DNA from: Mesorhizobium sp. Pch-S | GTDB taxonomy: Bacteria > Pseudomonadota > Alphaproteobacteria > Rhizobiales > Rhizobiaceae | Assembly (NCBI RefSeq): GCF_004136315.1 | Contig: NZ_CP029562.1 | Span: 5,045,501 to 5,109,500 of the forward strand | Direction: 5' to 3' | Length of the DNA: 64,000 nucleotides | Shown: one piece after another, positions 57,986 through 63,993 of the stretch | How positions within the stretch are numbered: position 1 is the first letter of the stretch | Layout: the number at the start of each line of letters is the position of its first letter | The notes under the pieces: model-generated | What the model was told of the DNA's origin: nothing | Seen by the model: the letters and a program-made list of their open reading frames with translations, nothing else | Databases searched by the model: none | Made by a program: the position numbers and the translations under genes

Positions 57986-58588
57986 ATGAGTGAAGCTCTC
58001 AACAGCCTTGCCGACCATATCAAGGACAAGCTCGGCGCAACGGTGATCGACAGTGTGCTCGCCTATGGCGAGCTGACGGTCCTGGTCGGCGCTGCCGACG
58101 TGGTCAAGGCGGCAACCTTCCTGCGTGATGACGCCAGGTGCCAGTTCGTTTCGATCATCGACGTGTCAGGTGCCGACTATCCGTCGCGGGCGCTGCGCTT
58201 CGACGTGGTCTATCATCTGTTGTCGCCGAAGCAGAATCTGCGCATCCGTCTCAAAACACATGCCGACGAGGAGACGGTGGTTCCGTCCGTAACCGGTGTC
58301 TGGCCGGGTGCCGACTGGTTCGAGCGCGAGACCTATGATCTGTACGGCGTGCTGTTTTCCGGCCATCCGGACCTGCGCCGCATCCTGACGGATTATGGTT
58401 TCGACGGCCACCCGCTGCGCAAGGACTTCCCGCTCACTGGCTTCGTCGAGGTGCGTTACGACGACGAAGCCAAGCGCGTGATCTACGAGCCGGTGGAGTT
58501 GAAGCAGGAATTCCGCAGTTTTGATTTTCTCTCGCCGTGGGAGGGCACGGAATACGTGCTGCCGGGCGATGAAAAGGCGAAGCAATGA
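57986..58588 (+). CDS. nuoC: NADH-quinone oxidoreductase subunit C
   Basis: A 200-residue 30-kDa-type subunit of the peripheral arm. The signature segment [21 protein letters not shown] and the following [15 protein letters not shown] are intact. It is separate from NuoD, as in alphaproteobacteria. Its stop overlaps by 4 bases a tiny ORF for a membrane peptide. Confidence 0.97.
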
Positions 58589-58692
58589 CCGGCGGCAAAG
58601 CGGCTGGCGGCTCGACCGTGCGCAAGGTGCTGTGGCTGGTTCTGGCCGGCGTCACTGCGTATGTCGTGGCTCAGCTCGTGAAGGCGCTCTAG
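58585..58692 (+). CDS. 35-residue membrane peptide between nuoC and nuoD
   Basis: An ATG at 58585 overlaps the nuoC stop (ATGA) and opens 35 codons ending in TAG at 58692. The product has a small polar start ([14 protein letters not shown]) and a single hydrophobic helix ([18 protein letters not shown]). The coupled start and single membrane span argue that it is translated. I do not recognise a family; a complex I assembly or stabilising peptide is a guess. nuoD starts 21 bases later. Confidence 0.55.
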
Positions 58693-59904: not shown

Positions 59905-61125
59905 ATGTCAGTCCGTCGTCTCGCAGATGCAAGCGTCCAGCCAGCTTCCTTCGCTTTCAACAAGGCGAATGCGGCGTCGGCCAGGAAGTGGATCGCCAAG
60001 TACCCGAAAGGCCGCGAACAGTCGGCCATCATCCCGCTTTTGATGCTGGCGCAGGAGCAGGAAGGCTGGGTCACCAAGGCGGCGATCGAGTCGATCTGCG
60101 AAATGCTCGGCATGCCCTATATCCGCGGGCTGGAAGTCGCCACCTTCTATACGCAGTACCAGCTGAAGCCGGTCGGCACCCGCGCTCATGTCCAGGTATG
60201 CGGCACCACGCCCTGCATGCTGCGCGGCTCTGAAGAGCTGATGGATGTCTGCCGCTCCAAGATCCATCACGACCAGTTCCACACCAATGCCGACGGCACG
60301 CTGTCGTGGGAGGAGGTCGAGTGCCTCGGCGCCTGCGTGAATGCGCCGATGGTCATGATCTTCAAGGACACTTATGAGGATCTGACGCCGCAGCGGCTGG
60401 CCGAGATCATTGATGATTTCGAGGCGGGCAAGGGGCATTCCGCGCCGGTCGGTCCGCAGAACGGCCGTTATTTCTCGGCACCGGTCAGTGGTTTCACCTC
60501 GCTGGCCGATGAGAAGCAGATCCTCAAGACCACGCGCGACAAGGCGACCAAGGCTGCCGCGCGCACCACCAAGGAAGCACCTGCTGTCGCGGCAGAGCCG
60601 GTGAAAGCCGCCGCTGTGGCACCGTCCAATGCTGCCAAGCCGAAGACCGACGCCATCGAAACGAGCCCGGCGGTGAAGACCCCATCCAAGGTCAAGGTCG
60701 CGCCGGCTGCCGAAAAGGCTGCAAGCGTCAAGGCGCCGAAGGCAAAGGCTGAAGCCAGGCCGGCTGCATCAAAGGCTGAAACCGCCGCTGCGCCGAAGAA
60801 GGCGCCGGCAAAGAAGGAAGCTGCGCCCGCCAAGCCTTCGCTGGAAGACAAGAACCGTCCGAAAGGCATCTCGAAGCCGGCCGCTGTTGACGACCTTCAG
60901 TTGATCTCCGGCGTCGGCCCCAAGATCGAAGCCACGCTGCATGAACTCGGTATCTTCACTTACGCCCAGGTGGCGTCGTGGAAGAAAGCCGAGCGCGAGT
61001 GGGTGGACGGGTACCTTTCCTTCCATGGCCGCATCGAACGCGAGGACTGGGTCAAGCAGGCCAAGGCGCTCGCCAAGGGTGGCGTCGAGGAATACATCCG
61101 CGTGTTCGGCAAGAAACCGGTCTGA
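59905..61125 (+). CDS. nuoE: NADH-quinone oxidoreductase subunit E with a long HhH-like C-terminal extension
   Basis: A 406-residue protein, more than twice the usual 160-220. Residues 1 to about 190 are the 24-kDa-type subunit with [2Fe-2S] ligands Cys99, Cys104, Cys140 and Cys144 (VQVCGTTPC; VECLGACVNAP). A long Ala/Lys/Pro-rich linker (about 210-325) follows. The last 80 residues contain a helix-hairpin-helix-like module (LISGVGPKIEATLHELGIFT, WVDGYLSFHGRIEREDW). The same module ends a separate protein encoded after nuoF. The extension is not needed for cluster N1a binding and its partner is unknown. The start directly abuts nuoD. Confidence 0.94.
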   Translation: MSVRRLADASVQPASFAFNKANAASARKWIAKYPKGREQSAIIPLLMLAQEQEGWVTKAAIESICEMLGMPYIRGLEVATFYTQYQLKPVGTRAHVQVCGTTPCMLRGSEELMDVCRSKIHHDQFHTNADGTLSWEEVECLGACVNAPMVMIFKDTYEDLTPQRLAEIIDDFEAGKGHSAPVGPQNGRYFSAPVSGFTSLADEKQILKTTRDKATKAAARTTKEAPAVAAEPVKAAAVAPSNAAKPKTDAIETSPAVKTPSKVKVAPAAEKAASVKAPKAKAEARPAASKAETAAAPKKAPAKKEAAPAKPSLEDKNRPKGISKPAAVDDLQLISGVGPKIEATLHELGIFTYAQVASWKKAEREWVDGYLSFHGRIEREDWVKQAKALAKGGVEEYIRVFGKKPV

Positions 61126-61138
61126 GGAAGCATAGACC

Positions 61139-61774
61139 ATGGCTAGCTTTGGCAAGAGAGGGCAGGATACGCAGCGTTCGTCGAACGCCGTGCGCCCGCT
61201 TGCCGGCAGCGCGCCCCGGATCTCGCCGCAGAAACCAAGCCCACATGTGATCTATCGAGATGGTGAGACGGAACGTCCGCAGTTCCATGGTTCATTCATC
61301 GATTTGCACTGGCCGAAGCTCGGGGCGGGCGCGGCGGCACTGTTCGCATTCGGATATTCCATCTCGTCGGGCAGGACCGATCCCTTCAGCCTCGTGCTTG
61401 TAACGGCGCTCGCGGGTGGCATGGTCTATTTCGTGCTCAACAAGTTCCGCAAGTCGGTCGACGACGTCCACACCGCACGTACCGAGATTTTCAGGTCGCC
61501 GCGCTTTGCCGTCGGCGCGCTGTTGGGACTTTGTTATTTTGTCTATTCGACGTTCTTTGGTTCCAGCGAGTCGACAGGAAACCAGATCGCCGACGCGGTG
61601 GCGAAGTTCCAGGATCCGTTGACCCCTTTTCGTGATGGCTTTCAGCAGCAGGATTTGTCAGCTGTCGCCATGCTCATCCTCAAGGCTGCCGGCATGATGG
61701 TTTTCGGCGGCCTGATCGTAAGAACCGTAGCCAGGCGAGTGCTTGGCGAAGAAGAAAGCGGGAGCACCACATAA
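61139..61774 (+). CDS. Membrane protein of unknown function inside the nuo operon
   Basis: A 211-residue protein between nuoE and nuoF. A polar N-terminus of about 55 residues is followed by hydrophobic segments [50 protein letters not shown] and [17 protein letters not shown], so three or four helices. No family was recognised. Its stop overlaps the nuoF start (TAATG), so it is translated with the complex I genes. It could help assemble or anchor the complex. Confidence 0.7.
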
Positions 61775-63078
61775 TGCTTCAGGACAAGGACCGCATCTTC
61801 ACCAATATCTACGGCCGCTTCGACCAGTCGCTGCAAGGCGCCATGGCGCGCGGGCAGTGGGATGGCACCAAGGCGATCATCGACAAGGGCCGTGACTGGA
61901 TCATCAACGAGATGAAGGCGTCGGGGCTGCGTGGCCGTGGCGGAGCCGGCTTCCCGACAGGCCTCAAATGGTCGTTCATGCCCAAGCAGAGCGACGGCCG
62001 TCCGAGCTATCTCGTCGTCAATGCCGACGAATCCGAGCCGGGAACCTGCAAGGATCGCGATATCCTGCGTCATGATCCTCACACGCTGGTTGAGGGTTGC
62101 CTGCTGGCCGGCTTCGCCATGGGGGCGGTTGCTGCCTACATCTATGTCCGCGGCGAATTCATCCGTGAGCGTGAGGCGCTGCAGCGGGCCATCGATGAGG
62201 CTTACGAAGCCAAGCTGATCGGCAAGGGCAACAAGAACGGCTACGATTTCGACATCTACGTCCATCATGGCGCGGGTGCCTATATCTGCGGCGAAGAGAC
62301 CGCGCTGCTGGAAAGCCTGGAAGGCAAGAAGGGCCAGCCGCGCCTGAAGCCGCCGTTCCCGGCCAATGTCGGCCTTTATGGCTGCCCGACCACGGTCAAC
62401 AATGTCGAGTCGATCGCCGTGGCCCCTACCATCCTGCGCCGCGGCGCAGCATGGTTCTCGTCGATCGGCCGCCCGAACAATGTCGGCACCAAGCTGTTCA
62501 TGCTGGTTGGCCACGTCAACACGCCCTGCACCGTCGAAGAAGCGATGGGCATCACCTTCCGCGAACTCATCGAGAAGCATGGCGGCGGCATCCGCGGTGG
62601 CTGGGACAACCTGCTCGCCGTCATCCCTGGCGGTGCGTCCTGCCCGGTCGTCAAGGCCGAGGACATCATCGACTGCCCGATGGATTTCGATGGCCTGCGC
62701 GAGAAGAAATCCTCGTTTGGCACGGCTGCCGTCATCGTCATGGACAAGTCGACCGATATCGTGAAGGCGATCGCCAGACTTGCCTATTTCTTCAAGCACG
62801 AAAGCTGTGGCCAGTGCACGCCATGCCGTGAAGGCACGGGCTGGATGTGGCGGGTGATGGAACGGCTGGTGCGCGGCGAGGCGCAGAAGCGCGAGATCGA
62901 CATGCTGCTCGATGTCACGAAGCAGATCGAAGGTCACACGATCTGCGCGCTCGGCGATGCTGCGGCCTGGCCCATCCAGGGTCTGATCCGCAACTTCCGC
63001 CCGGAGATCGAGCGCCGCATCGACGAATTCACCCGCAACGCACACCGTGCCGAGCCGGTGCTTGTGGCGGCTGAGTAA
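61774..63078 (+). CDS. nuoF: NADH-quinone oxidoreductase subunit F
   Basis: A 434-residue 51-kDa-type subunit that binds NADH and FMN. The FMN-binding glycine-rich region is [30 protein letters not shown] follows, and the N3 cluster ligands lie in [15 protein letters not shown] plus a later cysteine ([13 protein letters not shown]). The start overlaps the membrane-protein gene by one base. Confidence 0.97.
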
Positions 63079-63172
63079 CATAAGGCAAGAAACGGAAGCC
63101 GGGACAAACCCGGGTTTCAAGGAAACGGCTGAAAGCAGGGCATCAGGAACGAAACGGCTTAGGAGTGAGCCA

Positions 63173-63895
63173 ATGTCGATGTTTCCCATACCCGACACAG
63201 TGCCTGACAGGAACGAATTCGAGAAAATGACCCAGGATCTGACCAGGATGATGCCGCAGGAGATGGCCAGTGCCGTCAACCTGTTCGCGCATCCGGTTGC
63301 CGGTGCCGCCGCATTCTCGGCGCTCGGCTTCGGTCTGGCCAGCCATGCTTTCGGCGTCTGGGTCGGCGCGCTGACCGGTGCCGCCGAGATGTCGCAGCGC
63401 CTTATGCAGCCGGTTCTGGACGATTTCCCCGGCTCAGCGAGGAGCTTTGCCGACCGTGACGACGCACCGGTCGCCAAGGCTCCGGCAGTGCGGGCACGCG
63501 TTGCAACAAGAAAGCTGATCGCAGAAGCACAGTCCGTGGCCGAAAAGATCGTGGAACCGGTCGTTGAGACGACGGAAGACATTCAGCCCGTCGAGACCGC
63601 CGTGGTCGAAGTGCCCGCTGCCGTCGCCGTCACTGCCTTGATGCCGGAAGATTTCCGCAAGCCCGCCAGCATCGACAAACCCGCCGTTCCGGACGACCTC
63701 AAGGCAATCGCCGGTGTCGGTCCGAAGCTTGAAAAGGTCCTGAACGATCTCGGTGTCTGGACCTATACGCAGGTCGCTGCCTGGACGCCTGCCGAGGTTG
63801 CCTGGGTGGACGACTATCTTGGCTTCAAGGGCCGTGTCGAACGCGACGGCTGGCTGACACAAGCGGCGGCTTTGACCGCCAAGACGAAAAACTGA
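63173..63895 (+). CDS. HhH-domain protein between nuoF and nuoG, homologous to the NuoE tail
   Basis: A 240-residue protein with AGGAG 8-12 bases before its ATG. An N-terminal helix-rich region (residues 1 to about 90, with LTRMMPQEMASAVNLF and a hydrophobic stretch AFSALGFGLASHAFGVWVGAL) resembles phasin-like helical proteins only loosely. A charged linker precedes the final 69 residues, which contain IAGVGPKLEKVLNDLGVWTY and WVDDYLGFKGRVERDGW. By hand alignment 34 of 59 residues match the C-terminus of the NuoE of this operon. Function unknown. The pairing suggests an accessory subunit or assembly factor. Confidence 0.72.
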   Translation: MSMFPIPDTVPDRNEFEKMTQDLTRMMPQEMASAVNLFAHPVAGAAAFSALGFGLASHAFGVWVGALTGAAEMSQRLMQPVLDDFPGSARSFADRDDAPVAKAPAVRARVATRKLIAEAQSVAEKIVEPVVETTEDIQPVETAVVEVPAAVAVTALMPEDFRKPASIDKPAVPDDLKAIAGVGPKLEKVLNDLGVWTYTQVAAWTPAEVAWVDDYLGFKGRVERDGWLTQAAALTAKTKN

Positions 63896-63915: not shown

Positions 63916-63993
63916 ATGCAGGTCCACGACACGCGCGATGTGCTCGCCGTTCGCAACGCATACGAAGCGGCCCAGGCCGCCAGGAGCAATTGA
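63916..63993 (+). CDS. 25-residue ORF before nuoG
   Basis: An ATG at 63916, preceded by AAGGAAAGG about 8-16 bases upstream, opens 25 codons (polar, helical: DVLAVRNAYEAAQAARSN) ending in TGA, which overlaps the nuoG start (TGATG). It may be a real peptide or a translational-coupling leader. Evidence is limited to the start, overlap and spacing. Confidence 0.4.
   Translation: MQVHDTRDVLAVRNAYEAAQAARSN

Follow-up and report, generated by a model that had tools for sequence, protein, structure and literature searches.

Two lines of literature bear on the protein module considered here. According to the portions of a polyhydroxybutyrate (PHB) review available to us, PhaH of Caulobacter crescentus holds PHB granules by its N-terminal end and binds DNA nonspecifically through a C-terminal helix-hairpin-helix; the same proposed job of holding a body to the nucleoid is given, in the partial texts available, to the histone-H1-like granule tethers PhaF, PhaM and AlgP, of which PhaF and PhaM use a histone-like domain and not a helix-hairpin-helix. 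The second line concerns protein-O of Dinoroseobacter shibae (PDB 8yy9 chain O), whose membrane-helix hairpin contains a Cys10-Cys59 link and which was identified in preparations of the reaction centre-light-harvesting 1 (RC-LH1) complex. Excerpts of the corresponding paper place its gene between nuoE and nuoF, state that only residues 8-59 were traced and the C-terminal domain was unseen, and describe that domain as resembling those of NuoE and other proteins of obscure function. Here we analyse a stretch of 64,000 nucleotides from Mesorhizobium sp. Pch-S (NZ_CP029562.1, positions 5,045,501 to 5,109,500; "the window"), which contains a nuo operon with two genes whose products end in this module: nuoE (59905-61125, encoding 406 residues) and the gene that follows nuoF, which we call post-nuoF (preferred start ATG 63173, end 63895, 240 residues; the longest frame begins at GTG 63047). 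We find that the module also occurs well beyond complex I.

The C-terminal tails of the two window proteins are homologous, aligning without gaps over 76 residues with 43 identical and 55 similar (BLASTP, E 2e-28). An initial annotation made from the sequence alone had proposed this relationship from 34 of 59 identities counted by hand, and the GVGPK-type helix-hairpin-helix that it named is present, as a GVG hairpin, in both modules. It had also described a NuoE linker of about 115 residues rich in Ala, Lys and Pro, which comes to 122 residues (201-322; 37 Ala, 23 Lys and 14 Pro) and whose make-up recalls histone-H1-like tails. A low-complexity artefact could be rejected because the matched part is the module and not the Ala/Lys/Pro linker, and the module is conserved while the linker drifts. 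Phage origin was likewise discarded, there being no match in 50,697 phage records, and no nuclease domain occurs among the Pfam and NCBIfam matches of the window's module proteins. Tails of this kind are generally placed in a cluster of orthologous groups (COG); one paper mentions that COG for a Halomonas PHA synthase.

Profile searches place the module among several known families. The Pfam family HHH_5 (PF14520) matched the NuoE tail at 22.5 bits, under its curated gathering cut-off of 27, and was not among the Pfam matches of the post-nuoF protein; relatives with the same module exceed the cut-off (34.6 bits at locus L157, 32 at L209 and 29.4 at L245). Among NCBIfam models, those for the PhaH phasin, long NuoE, ribosomal L21 and S2 match the module. 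The window's NuoE is a full member, over residues 2-406, of the long-form NuoE model (NF009040, PRK12373; Table 1), whose description gives a protein name only and no tail function, and the post-nuoF protein also matches the NuoE (E 1.5e-34) and L21 (E 2.3e-21) models. The post-nuoF protein matches the C-terminal part of the PhaH model (NF045508; positions 109-233, E 1.1e-22), with scores of 83.5 bits for post-nuoF and 62 for NuoE that do not reach the full-length cut-off of 250. The likeness to PhaH, as the review text available to us describes it, thus lies in a homologous C-terminal module and a separate N-terminal part attaching to a large body; unlike PhaH, the window proteins match the model's C-terminal part only, and the carriers are complex I and others. 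No protein above the PhaH cut-off was found in 290 genomes of the class, with the Caulobacter control above it; members of family f11 first taken for PhaH look membrane-anchored, and the two that were scored fell far under the cut-off.

The post-nuoF protein lies inside the nuo operon and shares the C-terminal module of protein-O (E 4.2e-17), but it has no cysteine and no clear membrane helix, its highest 19-residue hydropathy of 1.49 falling in the linker, so that no counterpart of the protein-O hairpin is found; across the post-nuoF rows of the window's family, hydropathy before the module ranges from 0.64 to 1.56. In our reading, the N-terminal part of the window's post-nuoF protein may be phasin-like. 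Locus L206 encodes the D. shibae protein-O itself (all 239 residues aligned, E 3.9e-159), and PDB 9lts chain A, a 76-residue "Protein LRC", matches the protein-O N-terminal part (E 4.5e-40). Within the open-licence literature, the PHB review and the RC-LH1 paper were the closest sources; we found no paper there on a helix-hairpin-helix in NuoE or complex I or on such an L21 extension, nor did we meet in print the joining of these lines that the sequences suggest, a complex I tail kin to a DNA-binding phasin tail and common to ribosomal proteins and importers.

To place the module in a wider context, we took a census of its carriers in 41 genomes of the window's family, the window's own included; the 119 family matches beyond that genome were all analysed, in 97 stretches. 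The module was found in 37 of the 41 genomes, in one to nine copies. Counted by genome, the carriers are NuoE (33), the post-nuoF protein (22), ribosomal L21 (21), a LivG-type importer ATPase (11), a DppF-type ATPase (5, plus the out-of-frame case in the window's genome), ribosomal S2 (5), a GlnQ-type ATPase (3), the transhydrogenase PntA (2) and a membrane-anchored type present in the window's genome (2), with cytochrome c1, an RND pump, an alpha/beta hydrolase and a protein-O-like protein in one genome each; 11 genomes hold additional, unsorted carriers. Carrier classes were set by similarity to a few references together with context, and genes at contig ends may escape this sorting; in the post-nuoF class the weakest assignment is a 37-residue match, and 11 of its 22 rows rest on position after nuoF. 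There are 36 NuoE rows, 35 of them distinct (one lies in two overlapping loci), and the protein-O-like frame common to L008 and L014 was counted once. Pfam backs cytochrome c1, PntA, the hydrolase and the RND pump as carriers. The DppF-type rows are 76-87% identical to the DppF reference and the GlnQ-type rows 30-32%, one genome having both.

The module sits in the C-terminal part of 132 of the 136 module-bearing frames, the others being three GlnQ-type frames, where it is N-terminal, and L195, where it is internal. These three amino-acid importer ATPases (L198:2481-3890, L112:1728-2894 and L180:2538-3926), with an N-terminal module followed by a linker, are the only such placements in the census, and they leave the tether reading given below unchanged. 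Four of the 136 frames hold two modules each, L244 holds three and L209 four; the last (L209:742-4797, G113:C53) is a frame of 1352 residues with a hydrophobic stretch near its start. Of 137 distinct modules, 134 retain the GhG hairpin; both arginine columns of the GRIxRD motif are occupied by arginine in 88% and 81% of 138 rows, and conserved Asp, Trp and Gln columns are also present.

In the window's own genome, the post-nuoF module used as a query matched five places: NuoE, the post-nuoF protein, a LivG-type importer ATPase (Pfam ABC_tran and BCA_ABC_TP_C) with a long Ala/Lys/Pro linker, a membrane-anchored protein with a hydrophobic N-terminus, Ala/Lys/Pro repeats and the module, and a DppF-type peptide-importer ATPase (L228:1-2381; G000:C1:4682400-4684780). 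The gene for the last ends in an Ala/Lys/Pro linker and its module lies in another frame overlapping by about 50 bases, which could be a genuine frame break or else an error of sequencing; this module matches the PhaH model at positions 165-232 (E 2.9e-16). Five stretches of the same genus taken for the DppF-type comparison carry the membrane-anchored carrier instead.

Outside the family, the sorted carriers comprise 14 non-window matches of a class sample (13 loci), 12 stretches from two families and 20 stretches of a phylum sample. These add ribosomal S1 (L242), additional S2 carriers, the PHB depolymerase PhaZ, and proteins that hold the module three and four times. In the phylum sample, which is weighted towards the window's kin, 38 of 150 genomes had matches, 35 of them in the window's class and three, weak, outside it; one locus outside the class, L245, encodes a lysine-rich stretch together with the same domain, in a protein that in our reading may be phasin-like. 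The class sample (one genome per family) gave matches in 6 of 57 families, and the module is therefore concentrated in some families; in one further family, f17, it was present in 37 of 41 sampled genomes. The 12 stretches (11 from f17 and one from another family) were taken around matches, and 10 of them have a module-bearing NuoE, then one or two further module proteins, then nuoF; of the other two, one has the NuoE only and one is not a nuo region. The protein-O locus L206 belongs to these 10. A third module protein lies between the protein-O homologue and nuoF in L202:3651-4514, L203:3184-3975 and L204:3636-4466, with an N-terminus that we read as possibly phasin-like.

We also examined how the module evolves, using Mesorhizobium nuo loci that were collected through their post-nuoF protein (the best 80 of at least 499 confirmed). 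Over 78 loci the ratio of nonsynonymous to synonymous changes (pN/pS) of the NuoE module, for which 73 pairs could be compared since five loci have no module, lies below that of the Fe-S core (0.23), and the linker has the highest value (Table 1); mean identity to the window is likewise highest in the module, at 84% in the core and 63% in the linker. Purifying selection thus acts as strongly on the NuoE module as on the Fe-S core, with the linker drifting. In the post-nuoF protein (80 loci) pN/pS is 0.34 in the module, close to the N-terminal part, and 0.60 in the linker. A tree of 138 rows (137 distinct), built from few columns and with 69 open forks, required 28 changes of carrier label compared to 89.0 for shuffled labels and a possible minimum of 12, and the tails therefore mostly follow their carrier; this gives no support to concerted evolution among the tails of one genome. 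In this tree the label "DppF" merges the five DppF-type and three GlnQ-type rows, and L195 was excluded from both the tree and the column counts.

The census bears directly on the proposal of the initial annotation that the NuoE tail and the post-nuoF protein are paired accessory parts that contact one another, a reading to which stabilisation of complex I may be added. Their operon position is consistent with such a pair, as is the succession of module proteins before nuoF in 10 of the 12 stretches from two other families, and 9wqv_a, a solved chain that goes by the name "NADH:ubiquinone oxidoreductase 41 kd complex I subunit", bears the module; for neither 9wqv nor 9lts did we find a paper in the open-licence literature. 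Across the 41 family genomes, however, both tails occur in 19, the NuoE tail only in 14, the post-nuoF module only in 3 and neither in 5 (Fisher p 0.44), so the two need not be partners and a complex I-specific pairing is rejected as a requirement. The same module is moreover found on ribosomal proteins, importer ATPases, the PHB depolymerase and others. The best-matching solved NuoE, 8qby_E, has 239 residues, and the alignment ends at its residue 199; we take this chain to be the Paracoccus NuoE. The extra subunits named in the accessible text of a Paracoccus complex I paper are NDUFS4, NDUFS6, NDUFA12 and a methyltransferase, the post-nuoF protein not being among them, and protein-O was identified, according to the excerpts cited above, in RC-LH1 preparations. 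Taken together, a complex I-specific accessory pair appears very improbable.

The annotation had further grouped the 35-residue, membrane-protein and 25-residue frames of this operon (Table 1) into a conserved accessory set. All three frames exist, but as a conserved set they are rejected for Mesorhizobium: the membrane protein was found in none of the 80 nuo loci, the 35-residue frame in 1 and the 25-residue frame in 16, in a search that is weak for such short peptides. The membrane protein has no Pfam family above cut-off; the protein database holds 28 members of its family, with the window's own cluster counted, and a homologue with 44% identity adjoins nuoF in the nuo locus L125. As far as we have seen, it is not part of the module system.

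Table 1 Features of the nuo region in the window, with the evidence for each.
Feature	Position	Strand	Evidence
NuoE thioredoxin-like [2Fe-2S] core, residues 1-200	59905..60504	+	PF01257 E 1.2e-50; NF009040 616 bits vs cut-off 514
NuoE Ala/Lys/Pro-rich linker, residues 201-322	60505..60870	+	composition; net charge +14; pN/pS 0.43
NuoE C-terminal helix-hairpin-helix module, residues 323-406, and stop	60871..61125	+	pN/pS 0.17; mean identity 86% (73 comparisons within Mesorhizobium)
Post-nuoF N-terminal part, residues 1-85, weakly hydrophobic, no clear membrane helix	63173..63427	+	hydropathy; pN/pS 0.35
Post-nuoF linker, residues 86-157, net charge -3	63428..63643	+	composition
Post-nuoF C-terminal helix-hairpin-helix module, residues 158-240, and stop	63644..63895	+	BLASTP vs NuoE tail; selection
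nuoF	61774..63078	+	present in 80/80 Mesorhizobium loci
211-residue membrane protein without module, between nuoE and nuoF	61139..61774	+	top hydropathy window 2.20
35-residue frame with one hydrophobic stretch, directly before nuoD; no tie to module	58585..58692	+	in 1/80 Mesorhizobium loci
25-residue frame behind the post-nuoF gene; no tie to module	63916..63993	+	in 16/80 Mesorhizobium loci

Our tentative preference, which we put somewhat below an even chance, is that the tail serves as a portable tether in the cytoplasm, with nucleoid DNA as its most likely partner. The helix-hairpin-helix, some 70 residues long, is placed at one end (in nearly every carrier the C-terminus) of components of large bodies in Alphaproteobacteria, and in this reading it hangs on a flexible linker that is frequently rich in lysine. 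It would thereby tether membrane energy-conversion complexes, importer ATPases, ribosomes and PHB granules, its GhG hairpin and the arginines conserved in GRIxRD binding nucleoid DNA whatever the sequence. In known structures NuoE is the far end of the complex I peripheral arm, so its tail would reach from the membrane complex through the cytoplasm toward the chromosome; its H1-like linker may help DNA binding, and the post-nuoF protein, bound to a surface, would act as another carrier of this module. Most of the carrier ends holding the module would presumably face the cytoplasm, and the sharing of one module across carriers would imply a shared kind of cytoplasmic partner. DNA seems the best candidate because of the report on PhaH, the conserved hairpin and arginines, and, in several carriers, linkers rich in lysine; over the 70 residues that precede the module the mean net charge is +10.6 in L21 (n=25, a value to which the ribosomal core may contribute), +6.3 in the LivG type (n=11) and +2.7 in NuoE (35 distinct). 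A contact outside complex I, such as with the nucleoid, had also been suggested in the initial annotation, and that part of its proposal stands as a possibility.

A number of observations weigh against a tether to DNA. The NuoE module is missing in 5 of the 78 Mesorhizobium loci, in frame and with the linker sequence and the last residues KKPV retained; given the purifying selection on the module elsewhere, the NuoE tail therefore matters but is not essential. The tail-less nuoE loci are L030, L046, L062, L070 and L087, and their post-nuoF proteins keep the module. The modules themselves have a mean net charge near neutral or acidic (NuoE +1.1, post-nuoF -1.9, L21 -3.6, S2 -3.0), so that basic charge failed as a proof of DNA binding, and some linkers are acidic (S2 -10.3, RND pump -17, and that of the window's post-nuoF protein). 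These charges fit protein-protein contact equally well, and domains of the helix-hairpin-helix fold also make protein contacts. Further, the post-nuoF protein scores better on the NuoE model than on that for PhaH and about equally on L21, and the PhaH search also gave a sub-cut-off match in Methanocaldococcus; as PhaH is one of several matching models, this indicates domain kinship and not function. DNA binding is reported, in the review text available to us, for PhaH only.

An alternative is that the tails bind each other or a common protein hub, grouping complex I, importers, ribosomes and granules, with the fold kept and the DNA contact lost. Besides the module charges, the conserved Asp, Trp and Gln columns and the multi-module proteins are consistent with such clustering, as is the finding that 31 of the 37 module-bearing family genomes have two to nine matches. 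The remaining 6 of the 37 have a single match, however, the presence of the NuoE tail does not follow that of the post-nuoF tail, and nearly all distinct modules retain the GhG hairpin, which touches the DNA backbone in known helix-hairpin-helix members. On balance, we regard protein-protein clustering as rather unlikely.

The three ribosomal carriers L21, S2 and S1 raise another explanation, in which the tails hold mRNA or rRNA and link ribosomes and membrane complexes to transcripts, for example in membrane-coupled translation. Ribosomal eL32 (PDB 9l94 chain Q) is also weakly similar to the module (E 0.012 and 0.031). Yet the PHB depolymerase and the importers have no obvious need for RNA, and PhaH, the sole relative with a reported activity, is said in the review excerpts to bind DNA. 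An RNA-binding module is accordingly a distinctly improbable explanation.

Extending the preferred reading of a tether to nucleoid DNA, we consider it conceivable, with more doubt than for the tether itself, that many Rhizobiales and Rhodobacterales possess a general system of spatial organisation in which one interchangeable DNA-binding tail ties membrane, translation machinery and granules to the chromosome. Its carriers would be complex I, cytochrome c1, transhydrogenase, importers, ribosomes and storage-granule proteins. As one module occurs on many carriers, which points to one shared kind of cytoplasmic partner, a single binding assay would be informative for many proteins. The module would also bear on the unseen C-terminal domain of the RC-LH1 protein-O and correct names such as "NADH:ubiquinone oxidoreductase" on tail-bearing proteins. 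If the reading is true, complex I of Rhizobiales and Rhodobacterales would be physically linked to the nucleoid, and the module would provide a concrete molecular candidate for DNA-membrane and DNA-ribosome contacts in these bacteria.

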